From Ophryocystis elektroscirrha (lineage: Eukaryota; Apicomplexa; Conoidasida; Neogregarinorida; Ophryocystidae), in NCBI GenBank assembly GCA_030141585.1, contig JAQIFP010000002.1:62001-126000 (forward strand): a stretch of DNA of 64,000 nucleotides. The letters run 5' to 3'. This document shows, piece after piece, positions 1,875 to 52,317 of this stretch. A model generated the notes under the pieces. It was not told where the DNA came from, ran no database searches, and saw only the letters and a list, made by a program, of their open reading frames with translations. A program made the translations under genes and the position numbers. The first letter of the stretch is position 1. Each line of letters starts with the position of its first letter.

Positions 1875-3444
1875 ATGAATGCAGACCCTTTAATAGATAA
1901 TCTGACTCCTATTACTTCTAACATAAATCATTTAAACCATATATTAGGTAATCAAGTTTTCAATTGAGTTCCAGCTAAATTATTCTCATTTGACTCACAA
2001 TTTACCCTATTGATAATTACGTTGATTGATAGATTTTATTACTTCTTATGTAATACCTATTATTGAAGAAACTCAAAGAAGTAATGAATCAAATACACGA
2101 AGCGTATATAGTAGCGTTTTAGCGCGCTGCAAAACTATACCTCCATTTTTCGATACATTGATTGAAGATATTGCAAATACCGGAATTATTAAGTGATTTA
2201 GTGAAATCAATACAACAAGTTATAGGTTTCCATGGTGTATGATCAGATTTATATTATTACTGAAAACAGAACATGTAAAAAAAACTCTGGATTTAAATTG
2301 CTCTATCCATACAGGTTTTGAAGGGATTAAATAATAATAGTAATAATAAATCACAGTTGGAGCCCTTATACATACTGCTAAACTCATTTTGGTCAACTTC
2401 CTTGTAAATTTTAATCTTACTAAAAATAGTAACAGCACTTGTGACGAGCACATTGTCTTGTTGACATTATATATTAGTCATTTAATATTGTTATTATTAC
2501 TATCATTACTATTCTTATATATTCAGAGCTCCTCTTGGCGTGCGAAGATTTTGTGAGTTACTTTTAGACAGTGAAAGGCATATTGAAAATCCGCGAAAAT
2601 TTATTTATAGTTTGATTAAAGTAGGAATTCTCCTTAGTTATATAAGCTTAGTCATTGTCATGTATAGTGACTCCTTTGTCTCATAATATAGCACCAGAAG
2701 TCGATGAATTTGTTTTTCCTTTAAATATACAAGAGGCATTAAAGTTTTTAGTAATCACTTCTTCAATTTAGTTACTTTAAAGGATCCGAATAAATCCACA
2801 CTGTTAGAGCATCAATTATTGAGTTTAGAAGAGCCAAAAAAAAAAAAAATAGATACTAAAAACTCACCTGAAAAACTACAAAGCTCACCATCTATAAACT
2901 TGTTTTATAATGATCAAGTGCCTGATGACATAAGTAAAAGTGGGTTTTTCAAAAATGATAAAATGGAAAATAACCAAGTCAAGCCTGATTCAATAAAACG
3001 TAATACAAGATTCTATTAATAATTAATCAGGAAACAAACTAGCAGAAACATTTTTGAAAGAATTAGTTGAAGATGACCATTTAGAATCAAGCAACGGAGA
3101 AGAAAAGTGTGAAATGCGTACTTAATTGAAAAAATCAAATGTATTTAGCTCAAAGTCCAATTTATAGAGATTTGTTGTCTGGAGAATATTTTGAAGAAGC
3201 TGAAAACCTTGATTACGATGTAACTTCAGAGGCTACGCAATTGTTATCTTTATCGTTGTCTGAAAAATCTGACACTTTAGTAATTTCCGATCAATCAATT
3301 AAAATATCACCATCATTCAACGAAAATAAGATCAATGGTAATAGCTGTTCAAATGATTATTTATATTTAATTTTAGAGTCCAAAATATCTAAAGATATAG
3401 ACTTTATATATGGCCGTCATAATTTTACAAATAGAAATATTTAG
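1875..3444 (+). CDS. PPP4R2: Protein phosphatase 4 regulatory subunit 2 (PP4R2)
   Basis: Spliced exons give IPPFFDTLIEDIANTGIIKFPW and then APLGVRRFCELLLDSERHIE, which match the two hallmark blocks of PP4R2 (the IARTG..FPW block and the 'APFT.QRLCELL.DPR+' block). PP4R2 binds and targets the PP4 catalytic subunit, with roles in DNA repair and splicing. Introns placed exactly: 2193-2225 (33), 2621-2651 (31), 2751-2782 (32), 3000-3030 (31), 3118-3148 (31). An exon boundary near 1945 and the segment 2300-2525 between the two blocks are not fully resolved. The C-terminal half is acidic and low in complexity, with a run of lysines near 2835, as in the disordered tails of the family. The start is the first ATG in frame. 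Confidence 0.75.
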
Positions 3445-3765
3445 TTATTCAAGATTACAGGAGGGCTTTTCTTAATCAAAACAATTATGTTATAACGAAA
3501 TTAGTTAATTTTTTTCCAATACATTTTGTAAAGGCAAAATGTCATAATTTTTTTCAATGAAAGTTGAATAATCTACCAATCCTTTATATTATAAAAGTTA
3601 TGAAATAAAAATAAAGTTTTTTAAATAATGTTGTTCTTCACATTATTTAAAAGAAGTAACAGTTTTCTTAAATTTTACAGTTTAAAATTTTAAAGCTATT
3701 GTGTGAACTTTTAATCATAATCCCTTAAAACTAAAAAATTTGTCCTAACATCAAATTAGCTATAA

Positions 3766-4590
3766 ATGGAAACTTTATTAAAGAAGAATCAAAACATAAA
3801 TGAAATAATTTTCCAGTCCTTACCATCAACCCAAGAATATTGCAAGAATAATATAAAAAACTTGACGGTAATTCATGGATTGTCCATGTATACATGGCTC
3901 AGTGTTAGAACAAAACACCAGCCAAAAGGTTACGGACAGATAAAATCTAGTAATTTACGTAATCAATGGATTGGAAAAAAAGGAAATCTTTTTGTTTCTT
4001 TCCTTTTTTTCTGGCCAAGAAAGCTAATTGGTCAAATTCAGTTTTTACCACTTTTGACAACTTATGTAATTTCAAAAGTTTTAGATATATATATGATAAC
4101 ATCATACATCAAATGGATAAATGATGTTATTGTTAATGGGAGAAAAATATCTGGTTGTTTAGTTGAAGCTGTATCTAGTGAATGTGGGTTATATATTCCA
4201 ATAATTATTGGAATAGGTTTAAATATAAAAAAGACTCCTAAAATAAGTAACTGCAATATCGTTTTTACGAGTATGAAAGAAGAATTAAGAAGTTTTGTAA
4301 AAATACCTTTGTTAAAATCATCTGTAATATTAAAAATTTTTTCAAATATTCTGTACGAAAATGTACTTTCATTCCAGTCTCAAGGTATCTCTCTGTTCTC
4401 TAAAATGATAACTGGAAGGCTTATAAATATTTATACAATTGTCAGTGTTACTTCGGATTTTGATAAAGAACAAATTCACGGAAAATTAACAGGAATAGAT
4501 TCAAAGTCAGGATTACTAATTATTCAGCGTTTTAATAAAACTCGAGTTTTGATTGCTCATAGATGTGTAATCACAAGAATTTATGTCTAA
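3766..4590 (+). CDS. Biotin--protein ligase (BirA/holocarboxylase synthetase type)
   Basis: A single exon of 274 residues. The lipoate/biotin ligase catalytic fold is shown by 'SLPSTQEYCK' (substrate strand), 'TKHQPKGYGQ' in place of the usual T-x-GRGR/Q loop, 'GNLFVSFLFF', 'YIKWINDVIVNGRKISGCLVEA' split across the KWPND and KI-GG-LxE motifs, and 'IIGIGLNI'. It joins biotin to a lysine of biotin-dependent enzymes such as acetyl-CoA carboxylase, using ATP. Tyr replaces the usual Arg in the G-R-G-Q loop and Ile replaces the Pro of KWPND. No N-terminal DNA-binding domain is present, so this is an enzyme only. Its presence implies at least one biotin-dependent carboxylase in the organism. Confidence 0.85.
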   Translation: METLLKKNQNINEIIFQSLPSTQEYCKNNIKNLTVIHGLSMYTWLSVRTKHQPKGYGQIKSSNLRNQWIGKKGNLFVSFLFFWPRKLIGQIQFLPLLTTYVISKVLDIYMITSYIKWINDVIVNGRKISGCLVEAVSSECGLYIPIIIGIGLNIKKTPKISNCNIVFTSMKEELRSFVKIPLLKSSVILKIFSNILYENVLSFQSQGISLFSKMITGRLINIYTIVSVTSDFDKEQIHGKLTGIDSKSGLLIIQRFNKTRVLIAHRCVITRIYV

Positions 4591-4660
4591 TTTTTTTTTA
4601 TAGCATATTAATGACAATTTTAAGCCGTGACTATGAATAAACTAAATTATAATTCGAGAA

Positions 4661-7376
4661 ATGCATAAATCAAAATCTAGCATAACTAAGCCCCATCAAA
4701 GTTTTAATTATAGTGTTGATATTAGAAGAAGACTAGGTTTATTGAGCTCTAGAATATACAACCATTTATTTAACAAATACGAGCAAGATATCATAAATCA
4801 ATTAATAAAACTAAATGATATCAGTTTGTTAATTATATGGTTGATTCAAACCAAAAGATCATCGATTTATCATTTATTATATAAAATTAAAGAAAGGGTT
4901 TCAAACTATGTTCCAGAAGATTTGAATTTGAACTTTAATCTTTGTCAATTGGAAAAAATAAAATTTTTATATTTCATCAAATCTAAAACTATAGGTTAAC
5001 TTGAATCAAAAATAGAATATTTGCAGATCATGATGCGTATTTACAAAACAGTTTTTCAAACTCTCATTTAAGTAAATAAGAAAATCATTTAACAAGTTTT
5101 AGTGTCTATGATCAGCTGTAGTGAAAGTTTAACACAAATCGATTTAATTTGGATACTATCTGAATTAAAAGTTTCTGAAATCAATGACTTACTTCTCGAG
5201 TGTTTGGGGGAACCTTTAACAAGCTCACTCAAAAATTTAACAAAACCTGAGCTTATAATTAAAATAAACGAGCTGTGTTTAAGTAATAATGCGAGCTTTT
5301 TCATTACAGTATTTTAGATACAATGACTCTTGATAAGATTTCCTTGAAATTAAATTTATTAAAGTACATATTATTTAAATTTGGAACAATTGTTTTTATT
5401 GATTGTAACACTCGTATATGTTTTCAGCTTATGGATGTCTTGATGACTATTGGTTTGCCAATTGATGTAAGTATTGCTCGAGTTGGAACTTTCGGTATTC
5501 GAAATCTCGTAGAAATCTTGAAGCTCAAGAAGTTGCCGGTAAATTATTATATCCAGTTCAAGAATAGACTAACCAGTAATAATATTATAATCAACCCGAA
5601 TTTGAATATATGCAATTCTATAACATCAATATTTTATGGTAAAAATACAGATGTGATCATTTAATAAAGATAGATCAAGATTAGAAAGTTTTCAATGCGG
5701 TCAGTTTTTGAAGTTTGCTGTATTTAAGTTAGCGGAAAAAGTAAAAACTGTCCGAAATTTTACATTTTTAGAAAAAACTTAAGCCTATCTTAAAACTAAT
5801 TCCACATTTTCAAAAAGAGCTTCAATTTTTTATATATTGCAAGTCCCTAAAATCCGTTTCCGAAAGATGCCTACATTTTCATAAGCAATTCGAAGACGAA
5901 ATCTATAAAATCTATTCACTTGTTAGTAAAATCAATTTAATATTGTGATCTCTATATATAAAATTTGTACATAATAGTTATTTCAGGAAAATTGTGTTGC
6001 TTACTGTTTGTACTTATACCTTAAATCCCAAAAAAGTGCGGGGGCCACAGACACAAATAACATTAAGCTTATAAAATTGCTTATTTCGTCAAACTTACTT
6101 TCTAACAAGTTTTTTAAACTAATGAATCGTTTAGAAGGTTTTTACTTAAAAATTTTCGATGTTCCTCAATTAGCATTAGAAGCTGTTGCTGAAAGTTTTA
6201 TAAGTATCAAAAATAATAGTGAAGTGTTAAGTTTATTAAAAAAGAAAAAGCGATTAATTGGAAATATAAATAAGCTCTACATGAAAAATTTGAAGTCTGT
6301 TGTAAAAAAACCATTAGTTACTTCGACTGAAAATTCTGATAATGAAAGTGAATATGACGAGCTTTTTAATAGACTATGGTTTCCTCCAGAGGTGATAAAA
6401 AAAATAATCGAAGCGAATTTTTTTTTTTCGCAATTGTCACGATTTATTATTGTCAATAAAATATCCATAGATTACAAAGAAATTCAAACCAAACGATCTA
6501 TTCATAGTATATCGACAACTATTGAAAGCTTTGGTTTGAATTGGTATTTCAAGCATGGAAATTGGGTTGGCTTTCATGATGAAGGAAGTTTAATCCGTGA
6601 AATTTATGGCGTTTTATTCGGAAATATAATTCTTGACTCAAGCATCAAAGATGTTTTTTTGAATTTGTATCAGAAAGCTCCATTAGACTTGTTTACAGAT
6701 AAATTTTTCTTTAATAGAAAATATCAAATAAATTCAAAATTAGATTATTTGAAGTCTCTTTCTAACCTGAAAATTTTTCAAGAGACTTTAATTTCTTGTT
6801 GCAAATTATATCCACAGAGCATTATTGGTGTATCTTGGCATTATTTAAAAAATCATATTAATTATAATGAAAAAGTATTGAATTGGTTATACGAATGGAA
6901 AACTGTCTGGAATATTCCGAAATTAATAAATTTTTTCGATGCAAATGAGCTGCATCAATGGAAGCATGAACTAAAATCTAGTTTAATGTCTGCAAATGAT
7001 TATAGCCAAGAAAACAATAACAAGTTAGAAGAAAATAAAGTGAACCAAATTGACGAATTTATATTCTTAAGCACTTGTGCAGCAGCTTTAGGCAGCAATT
7101 TAATTGCCAATTGCTGTAAATACTTGAGTGAAAATTATACATTAAACAAAAGTGGCTTACCTGATTTAATTTTATGGAGATCAACTAGCCAAAGTTTGGT
7201 TTATACTAATTCCATCGAAATAATGTTTTCTGAAATTAAGAGCTATAATGATAGATTGTCAGAAAAACAAGAGTAATTGTACATTTTAAATTCATTTTGT
7301 TGTTAGAGTTTGGTTATATCGATTATGTGATTCTGGAGGAAAAGCAGAAGTACTTTCTATTAATAAAATTAAATAG
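4661..7376 (+). CDS. FAN1: Fanconi-associated nuclease 1 (FAN1), VRR-NUC domain
   Basis: Eight exons; exact introns are 4995-5026, 5072-5102, 5309-5337, 5639-5669, 5741-5771, 5922-5986 and 7273-7306 (32, 31, 29, 31, 31, 65, 34 nt). The product is about 820 residues. The C-terminal half is clear FAN1: 'GFHDEGSLIREIYGVLFGNI', 'YQKAPLDLFTDKFFFNRKYQ', then the VRR-NUC core 'SGLPDLILWR' and 'EIKSYNDRLSEKQEVWLYRL', carrying the PD...ExK metal site. An SAP-like helix-extension-helix sits in the N-terminal half near 5130-5270 ('LTKPELIIKINEL'). FAN1 is a 5'-flap endo/exonuclease that unhooks DNA interstrand crosslinks. No N-terminal UBZ zinc finger is seen, unlike human FAN1. The last intron was confirmed because it brings in the conserved W after SEKQ. 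Confidence 0.85.
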
Positions 7377-7578: not shown

Positions 7579-9885
7579 TTACTCTTTAGTTTCCGGATTG
7601 CTTCTTATTGCTTTTTGCAATTCACATAATGAAGGGTTGTTATCAGAATTAAGACATAGAATTGATTTTAATAACAACTGTTCACAGTTTTTGTTACCCA
7701 AAATACATGATGTCATAAGTTCTGTAAAAGCTAAACAACCCATAATTCAATTCAATATAATAACCTTTAATGTTTTCATATTGAGAATTTGTTGGAGGTT
7801 TGAGTAATCCAACTGTCATTCTAAAAATGAACAGTTTTATCATAATAAATTAACCTTGTTGAAACAAGAGGATTTTGAAAAGAATGTGGATTTATGTCCC
7901 ACAAATAAATCTTGTTGCACTCAGAACCAGATATTATATGATGCTCTGAAGTTCTTTAACAAATCATTGAAGAAAATTTGACCTACGAATACTGAGCGTA
8001 GAGCATCAATTGTGAGTTTAAATGACCTTTGAACTTAATCCAATTAGCTGCATCCTTATTGAAAAAAATGTGTAATAATAATAAATAAATTGACCATGCA
8101 TCAACTCTTACATTCAGTTTAATGATACGAATACGAGAATCGCAAGTTGACACACATATAGCTGTACTATCCGAAGTCCAGGAAATGCCTGTTACTTTCC
8201 TACCATCGGAATAACGGCCTGATTTATTTCGGCAATCTATATCGAGACAAAATTTAAAACTGTTCAGCTTATAAACTACAAGTCGTCCTGAGTAAGATCC
8301 CACAGCAATATATTCACCACTAATAAGTAAAAAAAAAAAACAAAGCCTACTTTGGAGAAATAGCCATAGATGTAATAAGTTCAGTGACTTGAAAATTCTT
8401 TGTCATTTCGGCTTTTTCATATTTTGAAGTTGATGATATATCTGATAATTTCCAAGTTTGTACACTGCCATCAAATGAACCAACAAAAATTATATTCTAA
8501 AATAATGGATATTAAAATAATAATACACGATTTAAAGGATGAAATGCTGCAGCCAAAGCCCAATCAGAACATTTTATGACGCATGATTCCGAAATTGTGT
8601 AACTTTTTAGGCGAAAGCATTGTTTTTGAATAAACCATATTCTTATTGTTTTATCAAGACTAGCTGAAATTATTCGACTAGTATTATTCTAAAACATATT
8701 TGCTAATTAATAAACTATGTGAAGTAATCAAATCAGCACTGTTAATCAACAAAACAACAGCGTATCTCATATTCAATTTAAATATACCTCATTAAAACAA
8801 AGATCCCATATACACAAAACTACAGGCGCGTTATGTCCAGTTAATATAACATTTGGAATTTGGTTAAAAACAGATAAAGAAGTTGTACTATCAGACACCT
8901 TCATTCCAGGTTGTTCAATCAGAGACCATATGTAAACACAACCATCTTGAGAACCAGCTGCTAAAAACCTGAAGTAAATATAATTTAGTTAAAAAGTTGA
9001 GATATTACTGATAAGCTTGATTTCATTTACCTTCCATCAAAACTGCAGCTTAAACTCCATATAGGAAACTCTCTAGAAAGTTTCATTTCCGATACAAGCC
9101 ATACATCCGTCAAAAAAGCTTTATTTTTTTGTGAATTACATTTTGAAGGAATTCTCAACGGCAAAGTATCATTGACGTATAAATGATTCCGCACAAAATT
9201 AGTCCAAATTGGTCGCTCCAAATGATGTTTTTTAATTAATTTCACTGGTTCTGAACACGATTTAAATTCAATAAAGTCTAAAAGGTTACTTCAAAATAAA
9301 TAAGCTAACTTTGATTTAAATTTTCTTCAGTATTATTTAAATCTTTTTCGGTAAACAACCAAGCGAAAAAATCTGTTCCTCTATCAACAGCTTTTTGAAA
9401 TGATTCTGCTGTTAAAAGCTGTATTGTTCCGTTATCAAGGTTTTTTACTGGAATAAGTTTATTTATATTGGTCGACTTCTTCACTGTATTTAGATCTTTC
9501 ACTGTATCTAGATCTTTCACTGTATCTAGATCTTTCACTGTATCTAGATCTTTCACTGTATCTAGATCTTTCAGTGTATCTAGATCTTTCATTGTATCTA
9601 GATCTTTCAGTGTATCTAAATCTTTTATTGTATCAACATCTTTTAATAAATCGAGATTTTTTGCTGAATTGACATCTTTCACTTTAGCGAAATCTTTGTT
9701 TGGACAAATTACTTTTGAATTAGTATTAAAAGAAACTTCAAACTTCAATTTTGTCGAGTTCTTTTTCAGTTTTTGCAAATCTTTGATATCTATAATAAGT
9801 TAAAACGATCATTTTTCTTAAAAGTAGTTAAATATCATATTGAAGTTGCACAGAGTTATCAATACTTACCAGTCATAATATTCAT
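7579..9885 (-). CDS. WD40 protein of the WDR44 (Rab11-binding) type with an N-terminal KDLDTV repeat
   Basis: Many short exons. The WD40 part includes 'REFPIWSLSCSFDGR', a repeat containing 'TGHNAPV', 'VGSYSGRLVVYKL', 'GRKVTGISW', 'DSRIRIIKL', then 'EHHIISGSECNKIYLWDIN'; order and wording follow WDR44. C-terminal introns placed exactly: 7954-7986, 7821-7854 and 7731-7764 (33, 34, 34 nt); removing them gives an uninterrupted frame to the TAA at 7579-7581. The first exon (MNIMTD, ATG at 9883-9885) joins the repeat exon across an intron of roughly 80 nt. WDR44 proteins bind Rab11 on endosomes; the binding region here cannot be recognised. The N-terminal third is charged, low in complexity, and unlike the metazoan protein. 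Confidence 0.7.
9478..9640 (-). repeat. 18-bp coding minisatellite encoding KDLDTV
   Basis: About nine in-frame copies of an 18-bp unit (tctttcactgtatctaga on the + strand) encode Lys-Asp-Leu-Asp-Thr-Val/Leu/Met. The four to five copies nearest the right end of the protein array are almost identical, while the others differ by one or two bases, which suggests recent expansion. It lies inside the N-terminal exon of the WDR44-like gene and keeps frame. Confidence 0.9.
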
Positions 9886-12534: not shown

Positions 12535-13609
12535 ATGGATAATGGATCTGTAAATGAAGATGCTGATTTAACTGAACACAGATACACTATTACAACTGTT
12601 AAAAGGCGACGCTTCACAACGCCACTAGAATTTAACGAATTATGGTGGATCAATAACATAGGTCACTTTTGGTATGAAGCTTTAAAGCAAATACTCACTG
12701 ATCCAAGATTACTGAATTGTCTAGATAAGGTGGAAGAAAATCTGGCAAATAAGATTGCTGTAAAAAAAAAAAATTAGCAATACTTTTTAGATATATCCTC
12801 CAAAAAATTTGATATTCAACGCATTTATACACACCCCGTAATTCTATATTTTTATAAATTTCATCCCAGACTTCCCTCTGTTAAAGTTGTCATAGTGGGC
12901 CAAGACCCTTATCACAAACCAGGACAAGCAATGGTATGAAAAGATAAAAGTAGTTCATTAACAAAGGGGTTATCTTTTTCTGTGCCGCGCAGTGTGATCA
13001 AACCGCCTAGTTTAAAAAATATCATAAAGGAGTTAAATGCGGAATTTGATTGTGGTTAAAATTTCTTTTATATAAGCTTGTTGTAGATGGAATAAATTTT
13101 GACCACGGTGATTTAACAGAGTGGACTAAACAAGGAGTTTTTTTAATAAATGATAGGTATTAAAACTAATAATCTAATACTTTCAGCCTAACAGTAGAAT
13201 GTAATAAAGCGGCTTCTCACAAAAATTATGTAAGAAGCAGTAATATGTAATTTTTCTAGGGTTGGTCTGTTTTAACTGATGAAGCTATTAAGCAAATCAG
13301 CAGTTCAGGAAGGAACGTTGTATTTATGCTATGGGGTGACTTAACTTAAACTGTTCATATTTGCTAGGAGAGTTTGCAAAAAAAAAAAAAAGGATTATTG
13401 CTTCAGATAAACACTTAATTTTGGAAGCAGGACACCCTTCCCCATTGTCAGCTAGATATTTTTTAGGTAAAATAATTTCCAATTATTAATTTAATTAACG
13501 CTTAGGTTGTCGGCATTTTACTCTAGCGAATAAATACTTTGAAGAAAAAGAAATTTTGCCTATTGATTGGTTAGCGCCGTGGAGAAAGATAATCCAAGAG
13601 AAGACTTGA
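12535..13609 (+). CDS. UNG: Uracil-DNA glycosylase (UNG family 1)
   Basis: The catalytic water-activating motif reads [11 protein letters not shown], and after a 33-nt intron (starting GTATGAAAAG) continues GLSFSV and '[11 protein letters not shown]'. Further exons give 'GVFLIND' with '[21 protein letters not shown]', 'VVFMLWG', and the DNA-intercalation loop [11 protein letters not shown] followed by [12 protein letters not shown]. This is the full set of family-1 UDG motifs. It removes uracil from DNA to start base-excision repair. The Gly usually following GQDPYH is Lys here, and the substrate loop reads IND where LLN is usual. The N-terminus up to 12777 contains a KRRR cluster that may be a nuclear signal. 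The gene ends 58 nt from the convergent neighbour. Confidence 0.88.
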
Positions 13610-13667: not shown

Positions 13668-14685
13668 CTAAGTCACACTTTGAGTTTCTTTCTTTTTTGC
13701 CCGTTGTGACACATTAGTCTCATCAATTAGTTTGCAAATGGCGTCTGTGTAATCTTTACACCTGTAGATGGGTACTGAAGGGAAATTTGTGACAGATAAA
13801 TGAATGGATTGTATTTGATTTTGACGGAAAATATCGCTTGAATTGTCAGTTTCAGATATACTGAAATACTCAAATAGTTTGTTCAAAGTTCTATAAGACA
13901 AAATAACAATGAATTTTCAAAGTATAAACAAAAGATAATATTAAGTTTATCACTTACACAAGAAGGTTTTGATATAATTCATTAACTGATTGATCGAAAT
14001 GTCCAATTCTTACTCCACTGAAAACAAAATAATAAAAATATTCACCTTACACTGTAGTTCCTGTTCGAAAATGTATAAATGTTTGTTGTAGTCTACGATT
14101 TATAACTTCTTTTATGTTGGTTTTTGTGAAATGAACTCTTACTGGCATCCTGATTGAAGCTTAATTGACTTTTAAATTTACCTTTTGGCTAGTATAAAGG
14201 TTTTACCCAGAAGACGTGGTATATGTGAAATAACAGATGATTCACATAAAAATAAATCGGCAGAATGCAAAAGCTTTCTTTTTTCATTAAACCTCGAATA
14301 ATTTTTTTTCAACTCAGATAAACTTAAAACCTTATACAATCATTAGATCACACAATTAGCAAACTTTTGGTAACGGCGAATCATAATGTTTCTTCCATGT
14401 CTCATTAACAAATTTTTCTAAATAAGTAACTGGATCCTTCCCGATTATACATATTTGGGTATCATCCTGTGTGTAAATAGGATACTTCAAAGTACTAAAA
14501 ACAAATTTCATTTTTGGCTATTACATTGCTAAAGGTTTGCTAGAATTTTTTGGCACAATATTTAATAAGCTAATTGTTAAGCACAAGTAAGTTGAAGTTG
14601 ATGTGATTTCTCTTTTTTTATCAATGCTGCGTTTTATGTATGTAACGTATTTTTCTAGAATATCGCGAATAAGTTTTTTATTCAT
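13668..14685 (-). CDS. Ribosomal L1-domain protein, UTP30/RSL1D1/CIC1 type
   Basis: Start MNKKLIRDILEKYV (ATG 14683-14685). Spliced exons give 'YPIYTQDDTQICIIGKDP', 'KVLSLSELKKNYSRFNEKRK', 'ADLFLCESSVISHIPRLLGK' and 'TFILAKR', then 'VGVRIGHFDQSVNELYQNL' and 'IQSIHLSVTNFPSVPIY'. This is the L1-fold order of nucleolar L1-domain proteins: the D-x-x-L-LGK block, then the G-x-x-I-G and S-x-PIY blocks. Such proteins act in pre-rRNA processing in the nucleolus. Introns near 14496-14525 and 14319-14352 are 30 and 34 nt. The C-terminus is short and lacks the long basic tail seen in some relatives. Confidence 0.65.
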
Positions 14686-20231: not shown

Positions 20232-23200
20232 ATGTTCAAAGAACAAGAAAATTATCCAGATTACAAAACTCAGAACTCTAAAGAGTCTTATGATATCAAC
20301 AGTAAGAATTTTTTATATTTAATATCTCTAGAAGAACACCCTTCACAAGCTGATATTTTGGACACAGCATATGAAGAGGATAAGGTGATTGAAATACAAT
20401 CTTTAATATTGTATTGTGTTGGAATAAAAGCAGTATAACAGATATATAATTACATAAGTTTAACAACGTCAGCATTCTTCTTAAATAACATCTAATATAA
20501 ATATATCTTATGATTCTATACAATGAATTAACATCTAATTTAACGCAACTTTTTTAATTAGAGACATTAGTTATACAGATTTGAAATAATATTGTAAAAT
20601 TAGGAGTTAAATTTAAATAAAGAAAATGAGTTTGGAAACGATTCGATGAAAAACGATAATAAAGTAAGTAAACAAATTTTCATATAATTTCAGTTATGCA
20701 AAGACACTAAAGTTGAAACAAAGAAAATTTTAGTCGATACGTTTTGTGAAGAGATTGACTCTAATAATTTGGGCTTAAACATTAAATTAGTATCAGACAT
20801 TCAAACTTCAGAATCTAAGAAAACAATTATTCGTTCAGATTCAGAAAGTGATCAGATACAATTTGACTCTAATAAAAAAGCAGATATAAAACAATTAAGC
20901 TCACATGAAATTTCTTCAAATAAGCATTTTACACCAAAGAACACAAATTTTAGTGAAGTTGACAAAACTTCAGCTTCTATATCAAATTTAGATGATTCAA
21001 TCATGAAAGAAAGTGATCAGACAAAGATTATATTAAATGATAAAAAAGTAGAATCGGAAAACGCTTTCACATCAGGTTCATTTGATCTAAATCTAGAAAA
21101 CGACGCATTCCAGGAAAAAACTGTTGAAACAAAGTTATCTAACGGCGAGTATAACCAGGAAAATTCTGATCAAATTTATTCTCAGAGCCTAGACAAAATG
21201 TCTTATTTTACCGAATCGGACGTTTCACAAGACTTCAATAAAAGCTCTGCACCCCCAACTACTGATACCGTTAACATAATCATATCGGCAGAAGATAAAA
21301 CTATTCTAAATTCATATACTTTGAGCATGGAAAACAAAATTATAAACGATATGTGTTCAGAAAAACTAGAAACGGGAAGTATCAATGGAGTTGTTGTCTC
21401 TGATTCTCACATAGACACAAATTTAACTAATTTACATGAGGAAGAAAACGCAAATACCCAAGAAAGTAATGAATTCAATCATAATACTGAAAATATTGAG
21501 AGACTTGAAAAAACTTCAGAGGAAACTATTGTAGAAACTCCAGAGGAAACTATTGTAGAAACTCCAGAGGAAACCATTGTAGAAACTCCAGAGGAAACCA
21601 TTGTAGAAACTCTAGAGGAAACCATTGTAGAAACTCCAGAAGAAACCATTGTAGAAACTCCCGAGAAAACCACTGTTAAAACTCCAGAGGAAACCATTGT
21701 AGAAACTCCAGAGGAAACCATTGTAGAAACTCTAGAGGAAACCATTGTAGAAACTCCAGAAGAAACCGTTGTAGAAACTTCAGAGAAAACTATTGTAGAA
21801 ACTCCAGAGGGAACTATTGTAGAAACTCCAGAGGGAACTATTGTAGAAACTCCAGAGGGAACTATTGTAGAAACTCCAGAGGAAACCATTGTAGAAACTC
21901 CAGAGGAAACCATTGTAGAAACTCCGGAGGAAACCATTGTAGAAACTCCGGAGGAAATCATTGTAGAAACTCCGGAGGAAACCATTGTAGAAACTCCGGA
22001 GGAAACCATTGTAGAAACTACAGAAAAGAGAAATATTGTAGAAATTAAAGAGAAAAAGACCACTACAGAAAATTTGGAAGAGAAAAATACTTTGAAAAGT
22101 ATGGAGAGGAACATAGTTGATAATACAAAAGATACCATTGTAAAAAATTTAGAGGAAAACATTGTAGAAAATCCAGAAGAGTATATTGAAAATAATATTA
22201 AAGAAAATGAAATTGAAAAGTCTGCTAATGCGGCAGTCGAAGAAGTTACAAGAGAAACTTTGAAACAGATTGGTCAGAAAAGCTTTAAAGAAAACATTGA
22301 AACCACTATTACTCAAGAAAAACTGGTAGAAAAAGAAATGATTGAATTTCAAAAAGCTGTTGAAAATAAATTAGAGAATAGTGTACCTAGAATAATGATT
22401 CCAGATAAAGCTGAAATAAAAGCAGCTCTTCATCATAACGAAAAAACTCACTTTGATAAAGCTAGTGAGATAATTGATAGTATTAATGAATCAAAGACTG
22501 AATTAGAAATATTCGATGAAGTAATAGACAAATATGTTGCGTCTAAGGATAATGTAAAGGAAGTTTCAAGTGTTAATAATAAATCTGTTCAAAGTCAGAA
22601 AGGTTCGTCGATCAATGAATCACTTGAATTAAATGAGCAATCAGATTTATCACACAACGACAATTACAATGAAATTAGAGCTCAAATTCCTTCATATCGA
22701 GCTACAGAAAATTTAAAGACTAATAATTTGGGTTATTATATTCCAAAGCTGTCTTACAACTCAAATTTTGTTCATAAAGGAAATATGGAACCGAATATCA
22801 CTTATAACGCACCTAGAACTCAAGATTTTATTAACAGGACTACGACAACTTATAAGAAGTCAGATATATCAAATCAGCACTATTCGTATCCTACTTATCA
22901 AGATTTAAAAAAACAACCTAATCTAAAAGTTGTATCTTCGAATCAAGTACATCCATTGCATGTAACTACGGGAACGCACAACCAAAAAACCGGCGCGGAA
23001 TATACACCAAAATATATAGGGAGTTCAAGTATAAATTATGGAAATATTCCAAGATCGTATGATTATTACAACCGAGATGTTCATAATTCCAGAATTGTTT
23101 CTAATTTAACAGATTTAAAAGTATGAAAAAAATCAATTTACTTATTTTGTTTTGTAGGGAATGAATCCTCAAACTGTAAATGATTATGAGAGCTATAAAT

Positions 23201-29984: not shown

Positions 29985-31874
29985 TTAAGATTTAATGTTG
30001 AAAATAACTTCACGATCAAATTTGTGTTCAAGCAGTCGCGTTCTATCTACCTGCCGACGTTCTTGTCTTAACTAAAAAAGAAATTTTTAACGGAAAGATA
30101 AACCATATGAATTACCTTACTGTCAGAAACTTTCGCAGTTTTCTGACAATTTAATTGCTCTTCAAATCCAATTCCCCAGATCTCTATTTCTTTTATGTGA
30201 AATATATGTTGGAAGTTTTGTTTATCTATGTAAAGCGCTCCTTTAGCAAATGTAGTGTCCATGTCCGTTGAATAACATTTTTTAAAATCTTTAAAATAGT
30301 TAGGTTGAAAGTTATATTGACTACCTGAATCTATCCAGAGTCGGAAAGACCTAGTTTGACCCCCAAATCCCAAACCCTATTGAAAATATTCGATAAATGA
30401 TGTAATTTACTTTGGGGAATGCGTCTTGTTTGTGGTTGAAAAATATATAATTACTAGAAGCTCCATCAACTCTTTGAAACATTTAAAGTAATAAAATTAT
30501 ATTACTTCATAATATTAAAGTGAGGGCTATATGTAAAAAGAAATGTGTTTGGTGTACCAAAATATTTAACGCATTCTCTTAATTCTCTGATTTTAAATAG
30601 ATAAACACAATTATATACCCTTCAAAAAAAGCTCCCAAAATGTAGTCATCAATGGACTTAATTATTAATGTTAAATATCCAGGATAATACAGGACTTGTT
30701 TAGAAAGTTGAGCAAAACTAAATCCTAATCATAGATGCTTATGTTGATAAATAACCATGTTTGGAAGATTTGTACAGTATGGACCAAGACATGTTAATAC
30801 AATCTGGAATATTTTGAATCAACTAATAAAAGCAATATTTAGGCTCAAAATAGTTATACTAAAAACCACAGTTCAATATTTAATAGGTAATTTATATTGG
30901 CTGAAGTGTCAGCTGAATTTTGACATTTAAGTAAGTAATTCTCAGTTTCTTTGGTAGTTGTATCCTTTAAAAAAGTTTTGAAGTTATAGGCAAAATTTGG
31001 CAAATAACTTTCTTGCCATGAACTAATTTCATCAATTATCAATTCATTCTTAATAGAGGAAAAATCTTCAAAATGTTTCACAATTGATCTGATTTGGTGA
31101 AGATTTTTTAACTGTTATTTTACTTCATTTTTATAAAATCGCGTAAAATATCGAATGAGCGCGTATTGGAAACTGTTATTGTATCTATCAAAACACATTA
31201 TTGTAAAACTTTTAATATTTTTTATATCTATTGTTGTTTCAAATGCATATAAAATGTTGTAGACGTTTGAATTATTTCGGACAAAGTTTAAGTTTTTGTA
31301 CTACTAATTGACTAGATTACTGTTGTGTTTCTTCAAGACATTTTCACATAAATCTTCATCCAGTAAAGTAGCTGGAGGATTTGAGTTGAAGACAGTTGTT
31401 ATAAATGCCACAATCAAGAAGCAGTGAAATGTTTGAGATTTTGAATTGTGTGGGTAATATTTTTTCAAAGTTGATACTAGAAATGCAACAATAGAAAAAT
31501 CATTTTTTAACCATTCTGATTCTGAAATACGAATAATCACAAAAAAATTGTCTGATTGGTATATATACTGTAGTTTTTAAATTTATAGTTTAACCTATTT
31601 TAAGTATATTTTTGGTAGCGATGTTTGAGTCCAAAGTCAAAGCGGAGTATGAGAATTTTACTATTAACTCAAAGATAATGAAATGCAGTTCTTCAGGAAA
31701 CAGATTTACGATACAGTGAACTGGGTAGTTATGTTTCAATGATTTAATATGTGGGCTTAATCCTGTTAATTTTGAATAATTAGAATGAATTTTAGCTAAA
31801 AATAGATTATCATTGTCATGATTTATAGCTTTTCCATAGTAATCTGTTTTTGCATGAGAATTCAATCCTCCCAT
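29985..31874 (-). CDS. TLDc-domain protein with a myristoylation-type N-terminus
   Basis: The ATG at 31872-31874 gives MGGLNSHAKTDYYG, an N-myristoylation signal (Gly2, small/Ser6). The C-terminal third is a TLDc domain: 'NTFLFTYSPHFN', 'DDYILGAFFEGYI', 'GFGGQTRSFRLWIDSGSQYN', 'FAKGALYIDKQNFQHIFHIK' and EIEIWGIG. It ends, after a 44-nt intron, with LRQERRQVDRTRLLEHKFDR. TLDc proteins bind the V-ATPase and affect its assembly and oxidative-stress tolerance; myristoylated members (RTC5, mEAK7) sit on vacuole or lysosome membranes. The middle exons (30850-31540) are helical and less conserved; exact splice sites there were not all fixed. Confidence 0.68.
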
Positions 31875-32897: not shown

Positions 32898-34728
32898 ATG
32901 AGTTGTAAGAATATGACTATGCTTATTTTTTTTAAGTTCGTTTGTTAAATTTATTGAGCCCAGCGTTATATATTATCCCAGAGATTGAACCTCCTGCTCG
33001 GAAGGTAACTATAAAATTATTGAATAACAAACTAGAGCTAAATTTTTTGTGAATTCAGATTCCATTCAAAGAAAGATTATTATGGACATTGATGACGTTA
33101 TTTATATTTCTTGTATGCGGTCAAATTCCACTGTACGGGGTTGTTATATCAAGGACTGCAGATCCGTTTCACTGGATGAGGGTCATATTAGCTTCTAATA
33201 AAGGAACACTTATGGAGCTTGGCATAACTCCTGTGATTACGTCTGGAATGATTATGCAACTATTAGCAGGCTCAAAATTAATAACGTTCGATCAAAGTTT
33301 AAAAGAAGATCGCATATTGTTCAATGGGGCACAAAAATGTAAGATACTTAAAATATTTCAAAAAAGCTGCTCAAAGAATGTATAAAATATTTATTAGTAC
33401 TGGGATTATTGATAACTATTGGAGAAGCGGTAGCTTACGTCTTGAGTGGTTCCTACGGCCGAATAAATGATATAGGAACTGGAAACGCAATACTAATTGT
33501 ATTGCAGCTTGTATTTGCGGGAATTATGGTTTTGCTTCTAGACGACATTCTGCAAAAAGGTTATGGATTAGGTTCTGGAATTTCATTATTTATTGCTACT
33601 AATATATGTGAAGGAGTAATATGGAAAGTAAAAAGTGTGACATATATCTTATTACATAAATAGGCATTTTCTCCAACAACAATCAATACCGGAAGAGGAC
33701 CAGAATTTGAAGGAGCTATTGTTGCTTTTGTCCACATGGTTTTCACAAAAAAATACTGGAAAGACGTATTTCACGAAGCTTTTTATCGCGTGCACGCACC
33801 TAGTTTGACAAATTTACTGGCTACATGTTTAGTTTTCTGTATTGTGATATATTTCCAAGTAATTAATATAATGCGGGGTCAAACAAATTACACAGGGATT
33901 TAGGGTAGAATTACCAATTGGGTATCAAAAAGTAAGAGGCCAAACAGCAATTTATCCCATTAAATTATTTTACACGTCCAACATCCCCATAATATTACAA
34001 ACAGCTTTAGTATCTAATCTCTATTTTTTTTCTGAAGTTATTTACAACAGATTTCCAGATAATCCTATCGTAGCTATTTTTGGTCAATGGAAAGTATTAT
34101 ATTATTGCGTTTTATATTATTTATACAGAGATTTGATGGTCATTTTTCTGCAATACCTATTGGGGGCTTAGCATATTATATTTCACCTCCGACTGGTGTT
34201 TCCGATATGAGTATGTCATATCACAAATTAGTGTTTTGAATAGTTGCTGACCCTCTCAGAAGTATCGTCTATATCTCTTTCGTTCTTATATCATGTGCCT
34301 ATTTCTCAAAAGTATATATTTACAATAAAGTGTAAATAATCAAAATGACAATTAGTTTAAGATAATCAATTGTTAGAAGTCTTGCTTATCTTGAAACGTT
34401 TATAGACATGGACTGATGTTTCTGGATCTTCAGCTCGAGATATAGCCATTCAATTCCGTGACCAGCAAATTATTATCAGGGGACATCGAGATACTGCTAT
34501 TATCGATGTATTGAACAAGTAATTTATTTTAAGTTTGACTTATGTTCAAGGTATATTCCAATAGCAGCAGCATTTGGAGGAATGTGCATTGGAGCTTTAT
34601 CAATTGTCGCAGATGTGCTTGGCGCTCTAGGATCTGGTACTGGAATTCTATTAGCCGTTACCATTATATACCAATATTATGAGATAATGATAAAAGAAAA
34701 TGAAGAAAGAAAGTCCTTTTTTTTGTAA
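32898..34728 (+). CDS. SEC61A: Protein transport protein SEC61 subunit alpha
   Basis: Exon 1 is only MSF; the 32-nt intron 32905-32936 joins it to [19 protein letters not shown]. Then '[20 protein letters not shown]', '[20 protein letters not shown]', '[20 protein letters not shown]', '[16 protein letters not shown]', '[20 protein letters not shown]', '[19 protein letters not shown]', '[20 protein letters not shown]', '[20 protein letters not shown]', and the tail '[20 protein letters not shown]' are the classic SecY/Sec61 alpha blocks. This is the ten-span channel of the ER translocon. The plug and pore-ring region are present. Several introns near 33340-34560 are clearly seen; ending [10 protein letters not shown] at 34728. 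Confidence 0.95.
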
Positions 34729-38682: not shown

Positions 38683-39876
<1,194 letters not shown>

Positions 39877-40462: not shown

Positions 40463-40559
40463 GTTTAACGATTATATTCTTGTAAACCGTATTCCTCTTG
40501 TTGTAATTGTTCAAGACGGTTTTGTAACTCTGGGTTCAATACTATTTCTCTATTTAAAC

Positions 40560-41764
40560 TTATGTAATCCAAGCGATTCTAAACAAGTCATTAAACATAG
40601 ATATATGACTAACATTTAGCGATTTAATAATAGGTTTAAGCTGAGAAATTGCATAATTTAAGCTTGAAATAGACCTGTATTAAGAGTAACATATTTTAAA
40701 ACTTACTTTGCTCCGGTAAATGTGATTTTTCCAGACGAAAAAACGTTTGCGGTAATTGTTTCTTGTTTCGGAGGTTTATCTGCTTGTTTCTTGCTAGATG
40801 AAATACGTTTCGCAGTTTCTGAAACTAGATAACTTCCAACTTCTTGGGATATTGTTGTTTTATCACTAATTTCAGGCTCTCTAAAAACTTTTTTATTAGG
40901 TGGAGGCTGAATTTCGTTTGGCAGTGAACTTTGTGCTTCTTCTTTTGGAGAGAAAATGGGTATCCTTACTCTAACAGCTAAGTATACAATAATTTAAAGT
41001 ATAATTTGTGAATCCGTAAAATGTCCAATTTTCTTACCTGGAAACCTGTCAGGTTCATAATACACATAACCAACAAAAGCATTAACAAACTGCTCAAGAG
41101 GAATTCTTGTATTAAAGTCGTATACCGCTAAAATATTTTGAATCTATAGATAATTGAAATCAATCTGATGCATACTTCAAAGTTATCAAATCTAATTTTA
41201 TAGTTCAAAGTATTTTTCAATCTACGTCCTATTTTTATCATTGCCTTTTTTGCTTCTATAGGTCGACATCCTCCAGTAGCCTTAATTTTTTTTTTAAATG
41301 AATGATATTACTTGAATTCGACCAGATTCGAATAAAGAAACAGTAAAAATAACACACCATTTACCACGAATATCAATTCTGAATTATTATACAAAAAATA
41401 TTTTATACGAACTACAAATGAATTATCATAAAGTTTTTACTATATTACTATTTAATCAAAATCTTTGCGAAAATTGATTTAAATTACCGAAGTGCAGGAA
41501 ATTCAAGGGGGTCGTAATACGAATTTCCCAATACCATACAACATTTGTCCAAGTCTAAACGAGTATTGCACACAAGCATTCCAGAAGCAAGTAAGTTATG
41601 TACAATAAGAACCTGTTACAATAAATTGGACAGAATATCATGAGATAAAAAAAACCAGCGATGGCATATTATGCTCTTAATAATATTACATTTTTTTTTT
41701 CAGCTTCAATATTTTTGGTATCAGTGTCAGTTTCCGCGTCAATTGTAGGATCTGAGAACTCCAT
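40560..41764 (-). CDS. TATA-box-binding protein (or TBP-like factor) with an insertion in repeat 2
   Basis: Starts MEFSDPTIDAETDTDTKNIE. Repeat 1: 'NLLASGMLVCNTRLDLDK', 'YYDPLEFPALRIDIRG', 'SGRIQATGGCRPIEAKKA', 'IGRRLKN'. Repeat 2: 'IQNILAVYDFNTRIPLEQF', 'YYEPDRFP..VRVRIP', then, after about 65 extra residues (a Pro/Lys/Ser-rich stretch), 'ITANVFSSGKITFTGAK', and after a 32-nt intron SISSLNYAISQLKPIIKSL. This is the saddle order of TBP, which directs preinitiation complexes. The DNA-contacting Phe pairs seem partly replaced (for example the F/F pair in repeat 1 is FPAL with C/M nearby). Repeat-1 divergence and the insertion make a TBP-like paralogue equally possible. Confidence 0.75.
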
Positions 41765-42030: not shown

Positions 42031-42688
42031 ATGAAGTCTTCGAAAGTATATGACGAAAAAAAAAATAAAACGTGAGCTTTGAGACTTATTTATTAGTGAA
42101 AAGTGAAAAATTTGGTTTTGTACCTGTTGGCAAAACGAAAGAAGTTCAGTTTAAAACGCGGACAGGAGCCACTTTGACTAAATTTAAAACTATTGGAAAG
42201 TTTAGAGCGTGTATTGTATGTAAAATTCTTGCGTTTGATCATCAAGTACAACAAAACGTATAAACCAATGAATAGTTTTTAAATGATGGCTGTCCAAATT
42301 GCTCATTCTTGGAATTGCGAGGAAATAGAGCCAATGTTAATGATTGTACGACAACTAATTTCACCGGGTAAAATATTGGTTATATTTACCACAATGTTAG
42401 CGTTTTAGCCGTAATACACCCAGGATTAAGTTGGGCAGCGAAATATCACCAAATAGGTATAAATAGTTCAAATATTACAAATACTATGAGACAAACGTCG
42501 AATAAAAAAAAGAGACAAAAATTGAAAAAATATATAGCTAAAAATTTTACATAAATTAACATCCATAACGCTTAATTATTTGTCGATGTCGTATGATTTT
42601 TCTTTTAGATGAGAGCGCAATTCCTGGATGCTATGCCGCTGAGGTTCTTGCAGAAACACCCGAGAAAGTAAGAGATCTTATGGCTTAA
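42031..42688 (+). CDS. SPT4: Transcription elongation factor SPT4
   Basis: The zinc-binding core is split by a 30-nt intron (42246-42275): 'KFRACIVCKILAFDHQ' then FLNDGCPNCSFLELRGNRAN, giving CxxC...CxxC. 'VNDCTTTNFTG' and 'LAVIHPGLSWAAKYHQI', then 'IPGCYAAEVL' follow. Spt4 pairs with Spt5 to make the DSIF complex that keeps RNA polymerase II processive. A 38-nt intron after MKSSK leads to about 40 residues (TYLLVKSEKFGFVPVGKTKE and on) before the core; this N-terminal extension is longer than in yeast or human Spt4. The gene ends 11 nt before the convergent syntaxin stop. Confidence 0.9.
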
Positions 42689-48939: not shown

Positions 48940-51900
48940 TTACAAAGCTTTGGTAACTATTTCGGTTGTATGGGCTGAAAGATCTGGTAGCTCAAGGATT
49001 TTTTTCAATTCGTTTTTGATCATTGTTTGACGCTCCAAGTTCAACCTGATATTAAATATAAAATGATTATAGCATGCACACAAACATTTAATTCATGTAC
49101 TGGACGCATTATTAAATATAAAAATATTCTTTCATTAGTTACCTCTTATAGTGAATTAAATTAGTTGCTATTCTTGCGGCCAATCTACTGTTTTGCTTGT
49201 CTAGGTTTATAATGTAATCAGCTAGAAAACTGTATCCTTTCCCAGATTTGTCGTGAAACTGTTCTAGATTATTCGCATATCCTTCAACAACATATCTAAT
49301 ATGATTTGGATTATTTGGTTGAAATTTAGGGTGCTTTAAAAGAGATTTTACAGTTTCTAGAACAGAAGGATCATTTGCTGTAGATTGAACGGCAAAATAT
49401 TTTTCCAGACATTGTGAATCGTCTATAAAACAGATATGTATATATAGCACTGAGTATGTCTTACGTAATAAATTATTTTATATAAAATAATACATGTGTA
49501 TAAAGATGTTACAATAATTACCTGCCCAGTCATTATAAAATTTTTCCAATGCATTTCTAAAGTGCTCGCTCTTATAATCATTTGATAAGCTTTTCAATGC
49601 TGAAAAAAATTAATTTTAAATATATAAAAAAAATTATATATGTCTTTAATATAATTATTATTACCTCCGAGCCTGTCTGTAAGATTTGTGGAGTTTATAA
49701 ACTGATTGTAAGCTAGCTCAGTTTCGTGTGGCCGTGTGATATAATTTAGTAAAACATTTTTCAAACTTCGTACACCTTGATTAACACTATCCACAGAGTA
49801 TTCTTTTGATTTATTTTTCTCTGCAAGATCTTTATATATTGATTTCATTTGGTCTCCAAACTTGGTGTATATAAAATTCCTTTAGATATTGATGAAATGA
49901 TTATAACTTACTGTAAAGCTTTTCTTGACTTCGATAAAATTACTGGATCACAGTCTTCATACTGTTGCATCAAACCGGGTATGTTTGGTAGAGTCAACAT
50001 AGCTGCCTAAGTAGCAAATTAGATAAAAATCTTTAAGTTATTACAATAAAGTTCAAATCCTTTCCAGTTGAAACAGATTTAAGATACTCTCCAATACCGG
50101 TAGTAATAATGTCTGACAGTTTGGAGGAGCATTTCAACTCAACCTTTGTTTCATCTGAATTAGCTTTTGCTGTGTTAATAATTGCTTTTGATAATAGTTT
50201 TTTTGCAGCACTCCATATATTTATGTAATCAGTGTCATAGGCCATTAAAAATCCGTAATCTTCTTCGGTCATAAAATTGTTGATTATTGTAACAGGAGCT
50301 GAATAATTTCTCAGTATCGATGGGATAGGTTCTTCACAAACATTTTGAATAACAAAAGTTTGAACTGGTTCTTTTAATTCATATAGTGTTGAAGGCAAAA
50401 TTTCTAATTTGCTTTGTTTGCCAATTAGTCCAATCATTATTGGAATATGTAATGGTTCTTTCGAAACATCGAGCACTCCATAAGGTGGAAGCTTTTGCTG
50501 CATAGTTAACGTGTATGTTTTTTTTGTTGGATCATATTTAGCATCTAATACTTCGACAATAGGTGTACCAACTTGAGAGTACCATCTACCGAATTGAGAA
50601 AGATCGACTTCATTAGCGTCAGCCATAGCATTTCTGAAATCATCACATGTTACTCCTTGACCATCGTGACGTTTAAAATAAAGGTCCATGCCTTTTCTGA
50701 AGCCGGCTTCACCAAGTATGGTAGCATACATACGAACAACTTCAGAACCTTTGTTATATACAGTTACTGTATAAAAATTATCCACAGCCGTGTAGCTTTT
50801 TGGTTGAATTGGGTGAGCCATGGGGCCTGAGTCCTCTTCAGCTTGAATACTTTGCATAACATTTACGTTCTCTAATCGACTCATAGCTTTTGAATAAGTG
50901 TCTTCCATGAATATTTGTTCTCTGTAAACAGTTAAACCTTCTTTTAATGTAATCTGGAACCAATCACGACAAGTGACACGATTTCCTGTCCAGTTGTGAA
51001 AATACTCGTGGCTAACACAGGTTAATACACGTTGAAAATCCGAATCAGTTGAAGTGTCTTTGCTGGCTAATAAGCAGTTTGAATTGAATAAATTTAATCC
51101 TTTGTTTTCCATGGCTCCCATGTTAAAATGTGATACTGCAACTAAATGAAAAATATCCAAATCAAATGCAAGACCAAAACGATCTTCATCCCATTTCATA
51201 GCCTAAGTTGTTAATAGAACTGCAATAAAACCTCACCTTTTTCAGTGAAACTAGTGCAAATTCAAGTTTTTTTTTTTGAGCGGGTTCACACCACAGATTT
51301 AAAGCAACGTTCTTTCCTTCAAATGTTCGAAATGTGTCTTGAATGTTTGTAAGATTCCCCGCCACCAAAGCAAATAAGTAAGATGGTTTCTTAAACGGAT
51401 CATTGAATAATGCAGCATGAGCTTCTCCTTTCATTTCTGGAACTCCTTCAGGAAGAGGCGGTACACATTCAAGAGGAGTATAGTTTCCATTACACAATAA
51501 TATAGGAAAATCTTTTTTTGGCGCACGAATTACGGTCTAAATATCATTTTCAAAAAAAAAAATCTACCTTTATCGTCGACATAACATCTGGTCTATCAAG
51601 ATAGAATGTAATGGCTTGAAATCCATCAGCTTCGCAATGCGTACATAACATATCATGACTTTTGTATAGACCTTGCAAATCTGTGTTTTCTGACGGATTG
51701 ATTTTGACTAATGTTTTGATTATAAATTTTTCATTATTCGGTATCGCCTCTAATAAGCTATAAGGTATGATCAGTTTTGATTCTTGTTGTTTCTTGAATT
51801 CAGCATGTTGTATAATATCTTCGAATTCTCCATTCTGTTTTTTTAAAAATAGTTTCAATAAATTTATTTTAAAATGTCCATCAAAAATTAAGTCGCTCTT

Positions 51901-52317
51901 AAGGGGTGTTTCAGGCATCCGATAAACTTGCATTACACTTTGGACCTAACAGATAAAAATTTGAAAAATACAGAATATCACTAGATCTATATGTAATCTA
52001 TTATTGTATTATATATTCAATTTAGCAACGGCATTAGAGCAACTCACGTATGTGTCTGTAAAATCTAAACTAAAATCTAAATCAATGTGGGCAATTCCGT
52101 ATTTGGGTTTCTCATAGTCTTTTAAATAATGGACACGTTGTTGCGGTTTACACATATTTGCAAAATGATTAGTTTTATGAGTTAATCTACGAAAAAGTAG
52201 AAATTGCGACGGCACAAGAACTTTGTAGGTACAGTTATAATTGTAAAGCTTTGTTAAATTGTATAATTTTGATTGAAATATACCAAAAAATTTTAAAGAT
52301 TTTCTTAATTGTTGCAT
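48940..52317 (-). CDS. M1-family alanyl aminopeptidase (PepN type)
   Basis: Starts MQQLRKSLKFFGIFQSKLYN, a basic/hydrophobic leader of about 60 residues that could target an organelle; a second Met (MCKPQQRVHY) could start a cytosolic form. The catalytic domain has GAMENKGLNLFNS (exopeptidase motif), HEYFHNWTGNRVTCRDWFQI and LKEGLTV (the HEXXH...E zinc site). The C-terminal domains are split by small introns at about 50030, 49860, 49590 and 49470. Ends 'LPDLSAHTTEIVTKAL' at 48940. About 1,000 residues in all. It removes N-terminal residues from peptides, for example in late haemoglobin digestion by Plasmodium PfA-M1. The closest architecture is bacterial-type PepN, as in apicomplexans. Confidence 0.93.

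Follow-up and report, generated by a model that had tools for sequence, protein, structure and literature searches.

Genes in the DNA studied here, a window of 64 kilobases (kb) that covers positions 62001-126000 of contig C2 in a genome assembly of 8.0 Mb and 118 contigs, are interrupted by very short introns. GT-AG introns of approximately 30-35 nucleotides (nt), a size not far above the natural minimum, are genuine, both in the group of genes at 1875..7376 and across the window. Very probably, these are ordinary GT-AG spliceosomal introns that have shrunk to near the smallest size that the spliceosome accepts. The gene content of the window is that of eukaryotic housekeeping genes, and GC content is approximately 29-30%. 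In the window, no match to an Rfam family passed that family's cut-off, and ARAGORN found no transfer RNA.

Length classes of the introns

To find introns, we used a two-strand gene finder in which the prior on intron length was flat, so that any peak in length must stem from the sequence itself. In a 264-kb sample (the window plus 200 kb of contigs C1 and C31), a flat-length run requiring only GT and AG at the intron ends gave 506 GT-AG introns, 175 of which were 27-38 nt long. Seven other dinucleotide pairs yielded 21-39 introns of this size. The excess at 27-38 nt was limited to GT-AG among the eight pairs, and at 15-26, 39-50, and 51-62 nt the GT-AG counts fell inside the range of the other pairs. 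A run with splice-site matrices on a 314-kb sample gave 255 introns of 27-38 nt for GT-AG, compared to 14, 26, and 30 in three controls with scrambled splice sites. The same was seen in 50 kb of held-out DNA outside the training set, with parameters trained elsewhere: 36 introns of 27-38 nt were obtained for GT-AG versus 3-11 for the seven other pairs.

By length, the 314-kb sample contains 8 introns of 29 nt, 21 of 30, 47 of 31, 34 of 32, 33 of 33, 46 of 34, 28 of 35, 15 of 36, 7 of 37, and 13 of 38 nt. The short-intron peak therefore lies at 31-34 nt within a range of 29-38 nt, and its two tops, at 31 and 34 nt, are almost equal. Counts drop past 35 nt and are at about control level from 39 nt. 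Introns of 63-74 nt are also in excess (50 versus 16-24 in the controls), more weakly than those of the main peak; this second, weaker class sits at about twice the main mode. That it arises from two short introns flanking a micro-exon was rejected as a general cause, because a suitably placed AG and GT occur in no more than 10 of the 84 introns of 52-76 nt. Above 74 nt, GT-AG exceeded the highest control in just 4 of 38 bins, and most long predictions are therefore noise. Judged by the controls, approximately one tenth of the predicted short introns are false, and the share is larger at 52-76 nt.

Intron lengths were also fixed by protein homology. Eight window proteins, a non-random choice made from 37 models for recognisability, were aligned to solved structures; their models came from a second gene-finder run that favours introns of approximately 33 nt (the length-favouring run), while the alignments are independent of that run. 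We called an intron fixed when it lay inside such an alignment and the 3 residues on either side were free of gaps. The alignments contain 39 introns, of which 37 are fixed and two were dropped for a nearby gap. The short ones measure 30 (4 introns), 31 (4), 32 (8), 33 (4), 34 (5), 36 (1), 37 (2), and 38 nt (1), and the long ones 54, 59, 60, 65, 94, 97, 99, and 109 nt. Hence 29 of the 37 fall at 30-38 nt (median 32) and eight at 54-109 nt, with none at 39-53 nt; one of the 37 is in a TBP segment that aligns weakly (5.8 bits), and another is at residue 2-3 of Sec61. The flat-length predicted set recovers 13 of the 29 fixed short introns and misses 16, and is therefore far from complete. Nine of the 29 are multiples of three, so that no depletion of such lengths is visible in this small sample.

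A first-pass annotation had described the introns at 1875..7376 as uniform, with a mode of 31 nt, and as present in nearly every gene. Their existence is borne out by the GT-AG excess over controls and by a fixed 34-nt intron in a FAN1-type nuclease gene, which is the sole fixed intron within 1875-7376. The flat-length run supports introns of 31, 32, 31, 31, 35, and 34 nt in this interval, and the remaining short introns there rest on the length-favouring run only. The proposed mode is one of two near-equal tops, and the fixed median is one base longer, at 32 nt. "Uniform" was too strong, given the eight fixed introns at 54-109 nt and the excess at 63-74 nt. "Nearly every gene" goes beyond what the models give: an intron of 28-38 nt is present in 22 of 36 window models in the flat-length run, which misses many, and in 30 of 37 in the length-favouring run, and the AK6-like and P0-like models, like GAPDH, have no short intron. 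Over the 314 kb, short introns are predicted at a density of at least 1.2 per kb of coding DNA.

Splice sites, a candidate branch point, and rival explanations

The short introns share a consensus of A-A-[A/G] followed by GTA[A/T] at the donor and [T/C]AG at the acceptor, with T rising across the final seven bases. Among 253 predicted short introns, A is found at +3 in 90% and T or C at -3 in 93%. All 37 fixed introns are GT...AG, with a GTA start in 34, a [T/C]AG end in 30, and an AAG end in seven. Compared to the 84 predicted introns of 52-76 nt, the short ones less often have a GTAAGT donor (14 of 253 versus 19 of 84, p 2e-5) or a TTT[T/C]AG acceptor (48 of 253 versus 33 of 84, p 3e-4).

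Upstream of the acceptor, A is in excess at -12 in introns of 29-31 nt (z 3.3, 76 introns) and of 32-33 nt (z 4.1, 67 introns), while for introns of 34-35 nt the excess is at -13 (z 4.6, 74 introns), these being values uncorrected for the 18 positions tried per group. The 29 fixed short introns, 16 of them outside the predicted set, carry A at -13 in 18 cases and at -12 in 12. Motif fits centred at -16, -14, and -12 exceeded 20 of 20 shuffles given equal restarts (narrowly so at -16), those at -18 exceeded 19 of 20, and those at -20 exceeded 18 of 20. Closer to the acceptor, A makes up 28, 26, and 36% at -6, -7, and -8 of the 253 short introns, versus 35% in the intron interior.

Parts of a spliceosome are encoded in the genome. 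U6 small nuclear RNA (snRNA) is found at C62:20963-20988 with its 26-base core unchanged (103 bits), and PRP8 (766 bits), SF1, and PHF5A are present as well, the PHF5A gene with a predicted intron of 36 nt. The PRP8 match (C42:193841-195052) lies in an open frame of 1121 amino acids; in many other genes, an intron comes every few hundred bases.

Taken with the controls, the homology, the splice-site consensus, and the weak A at a near-fixed distance, these parts make spliceosomal introns under a size constraint well supported. The A at -12/-13 is likely to be the branch point. On the strength of the A peak, the 5' part of the intron, from donor to branch A, would span approximately 17-22 nt and accommodate the donor-bound and branch-bound parts side by side, and a 3' part of approximately 11-12 nt would be read from the branch A up to the AG. 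Recognition would then take the form of intron definition, the two sites pairing with one another over the length of the intron. The first-pass annotation had suggested that a constrained spliceosome works in this way, which would fit the data. Compaction of a small genome may have driven the introns to their size floor. The longer introns (54-109 nt for those that are fixed) seem to have retained a fuller GTAAGT donor as well as a longer T-tract, and their recognition may depend more on sequence and less on distance.

Several results weigh against this account. The 35 introns of 36-38 nt do not show the A peak, and in the 84 of 52-76 nt it is unclear. A branch motif of free position gave a fit of 32.4, within the range of shuffles (25.6-35.6), and no k-mer clearly stands out in the introns. 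The comparison of donors and acceptors between short and longer introns was made on predicted introns, some of which are false to judge by the controls. A family search (in which the controls were silent too), two patterns, and a DNA search all failed to find U2 snRNA, which may be missing from the assembly or divergent. Likewise, the SF3b1 N-terminal family was not found in the genome, with the controls again silent.

The most serious rival is that deletion pressure produces the size peak by itself and no ruler of length is at work, in which case the 29-nt lower edge would be the point where splicing fails. We consider this possible, at rather less than even chances. It sits well with a branch motif that is not strong, with an A that is not fixed in introns of 36-38 nt, and with the tolerance of longer introns (54-109 nt among the fixed ones). 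However, deletion alone does not readily account for the upper edge of the distribution, where counts fall past 35 nt and differ little from the controls from 39 nt onward, or for the lack of fixed introns at 39-53 nt (one 39-nt intron in a glycosylase gene was read by eye). Moreover, the distance from the A to the 3' end shifts by at most one base between introns of 29-33 nt and those of 34-35 nt. A further and improbable reading is that the genome belongs to a gregarine-like lineage whose short introns are identified chiefly by spacing (approximately 20 nt from donor to A and 12 nt from A to AG) and not by branch sequence, with a U2 snRNA too diverged for standard searches.

An artefact, in the form of chance frame-restoring GT...AG pairs in AT-rich DNA or of assembly indels, is very unlikely. 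GT and AG are indeed frequent in such DNA, and scrambled sites still give 14-30 "introns" of 27-38 nt, but the excess over controls is approximately tenfold in the 314 kb and approximately fivefold over the control mean in held-out DNA, and 37 lengths are fixed by protein alignment, with the start and end motifs given above. Chance frame restoration as the main cause is refuted by the scrambled-site controls, the held-out DNA, and the homology; what it leaves is the residual false rate of about one tenth of the predicted short set. Finally, it is barely credible that the segments are eliminated from DNA, like the internal eliminated sequences of ciliates, and not spliced from RNA: they are short and AT-rich and the genome looks like that of an alveolate, but they have GT...AG ends with donor and acceptor context, unlike the ends of the ciliate sequences, and spliceosome parts are encoded.

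Known short introns and the placement of the host

Short introns in Porospora, Babesia microti, and ciliates make this a known kind, already described in other single-celled parasites and in ciliates; here it comes with a size and an A position that are particular to this genome. Two marine gregarines, Porospora cf. gigantea A and B, are the closest published case found in the partial texts available. Their genomes measure 8.8-9.0 Mb at 54% GC, and 71-72% of their introns are short (25-30 bp, mode/median 28 [27-30]); these have a splice-site pattern of their own, and an A is strongly conserved at 6 bp before the 3' site (PMC9250747, in the parts available). The present genome is likewise small and probably apicomplexan-type, with an ultra-short majority class beside a longer minority and, again, splice sites particular to the short class. 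It differs from Porospora in its peak (31-34 nt versus a mode of 28), in a weak A at 12-13 nt instead of 6 bp, the -6 position not being raised in A, and in a GC content of 29-30%.

The size of near 20 nt that the first-pass annotation gave for Babesia microti agrees with the 20-bp introns cited for that species in the available part of PMC9250747; this is another ultra-short apicomplexan class, of 20 bp compared to 31-34 nt here. Its figure of about 31 nt for Blastocystis was not confirmed in the literature available; PMC10639083, as far as its accessible text goes, treats minor introns, with a median of 39 bp and those below 30 bp excluded. Among ciliates, accessible parts of PMC5014332 and PMC12862383 give intron classes of 33-35, 47-51, and 78-80 bp for Oxytricha and Stylonychia, introns of approximately 25 bp for Paramecium (P. 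bursaria median approximately 24 nt) and from 15 nt for Stentor, and an under-representation of introns that are multiples of three. PMC12862383 also links SMU1, RED, and RBM17 to short introns. Tight short size classes in alveolates are common to both, but the present host is probably apicomplexan-type and the depletion of multiples of three is not visible (9 of 29). Related parasites can have longer introns: according to Table 1 of PMC9250747, the medians are 95 bp in Gregarina niphandrodes and 65 bp in Cryptosporidium parvum, and the same partial source gives 575 intron-bearing genes for C. parvum, few compared to the short-intron density found here. The accessible literature on ultrashort introns in Apicomplexa and on gregarine introns contains no apparent description of the present genome.

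This is a further, probably apicomplexan-type genome with an ultra-short class of its own, at 31-34 nt where Porospora has 28 and B. microti 20, which suggests that introns shrank to different floors more than once in these parasites. It would hold thousands of near-minimal introns, approximately 5,900 if the control-corrected density of the 314 kb holds and more if the recall of 13 of 29 is typical, and they offer natural material for finding how small an intron can be and still be spliced. Many genes here would probably be mis-called by annotation pipelines whose minimum intron is set to 30-50 nt.

Judged by its sequences, the host looks like a fast-evolving apicomplexan-type alveolate, with no named relative close to it, based on alveolin domains and on the relatives of Sec61, M1 aminopeptidase, and GAPDH. 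The first-pass annotation had stressed that the class of organism matters, with Babesia and Blastocystis as its points of reference; the same evidence makes the host probably neither. Alveolin (IMCp) domains gave 11 matches over the cut-off in the genome, some of them in one frame, and one bacterial control matched too. For GAPDH, the best solved relatives are, by their entry codes, presumably from Plasmodium, Cryptosporidium, and Toxoplasma. Among the 105 matches listed, its named relatives include Perkinsus, Eimeria, Nephromyces, Selenidium, Plasmodium, oomycetes, and a dinoflagellate at 72%, all of these at 67-72% identity, and matches in other assemblies reach up to 74%, above the named ones. 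Among the best 120 matches listed for the M1 aminopeptidase, the top one, in another assembly, has 50% identity. Neospora, Toxoplasma, and Cardiosporidium come next at 45-46%, and a brown alga, diatoms, and bacteria lie at 42-46%. Taken together, the nearest named relatives of these two proteins include Vitrella as well as apicomplexans and Perkinsus, but the dinoflagellate, oomycetes, brown alga, and diatoms stand at similar identity. A pattern search for the 3' end of ribosomal RNA gave no match.

In a Sec61 tree with 43 relatives chosen from the best 120 listed, the query falls, on a long branch (0.55), in a seven-row clade with support of 100/100. Besides rows from other assemblies, this clade includes a protein filed under an assembly of the fly Condylostylus longicornis. 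The identity of that protein is 72-77% to seven sequences from apicomplexans, chromerids, and other myzozoans and 65% to a plant sequence; in this comparison set without insect sequences, the protein looks as if it may be a parasite contaminant. The available part of the paper on the fly assembly mentions only an unknown bacterium (PMC10898089). A reasonable guess is that the organism is a gregarine from an insect.

Genes of the window

Coordinates and introns of the genes discussed here are collected in Table 1.

Table 1. Selected genes of the window and their introns (window positions; intron lengths in nt; "fixed" as defined by protein alignment)
Feature	Position	Strand	Introns
Gene without Pfam match	1875..3444	+	2621-2651 (31), 2751-2782 (32), 3000-3030 (31), 3118-3148 (31)
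Biotin/lipoate ligase family gene	3766..4590	+	open from ATG to stop
FAN1-type nuclease gene, VRR-NUC domain	4661..7376	+	32, 31, 35, 31, 31, 65, 34 (predicted)
FAN1 34-nt intron	7273..7306	+	34, fixed
Uracil-DNA glycosylase gene	12535..13609	+	31, 32, 33, 32, 30, 30, 32, 39
L1-domain (UTP30-like) gene	13668..14685	-	30, 34, 32, 33, 97, all fixed
TLDc-domain gene	29985..31874	-	37, 31, 32, 34, 34, fixed inside domain
Sec61 alpha gene	32898..34728	+	32, 54, 59, 36, 37, 35, 33, 94, 32; 8 of 9 fixed
GAPDH gene	38683..39696	-	intronless
TBP gene	40465..41764	-	109, 31, 32, 60, fixed; plus 32 on weak segment
SPT4 gene	42031..42554	+	30, 33, fixed
M1 aminopeptidase gene	49139..51918	-	31, 34, 38, 32, 65, 99, all fixed

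The first gene has no Pfam match; all four of its introns were predicted with and without the length prior. At the 3' end of the biotin/lipoate ligase gene, a predicted 37-nt intron (4567-4603) is doubtful. Six of the eight uracil-DNA glycosylase introns lie in the alignment and five are fixed, and the last two (13336-13367 and 13467-13505) were read by eye; the joined protein scores above the curated TIGR00628 cut-off across nearly its whole length. Residues 1-467 of the 472 of Sec61 alpha align to the solved Sec61 alpha isoform 1 (647 bits), with the first intron near the very start of the protein and the 35-nt intron adjoining an alignment gap. The TBP model has an insertion of approximately 65 residues in its second repeat; the insertion falls in a low-complexity stretch and could be a mis-called intron.

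A CwfJ/CWF19-like gene, of a splicing-related family, lies at 747-1799 with six predicted introns of 30-37 nt. Two tandem repeats were seen within genes. At 9480-9643, nine copies of an 18-nt unit lie in the N-terminal part of a gene that looks WD40-like by eye further on, and at 21511-22024, approximately 21 copies of a 24-nt unit lie in a long low-complexity protein (ETPEETIV repeats).

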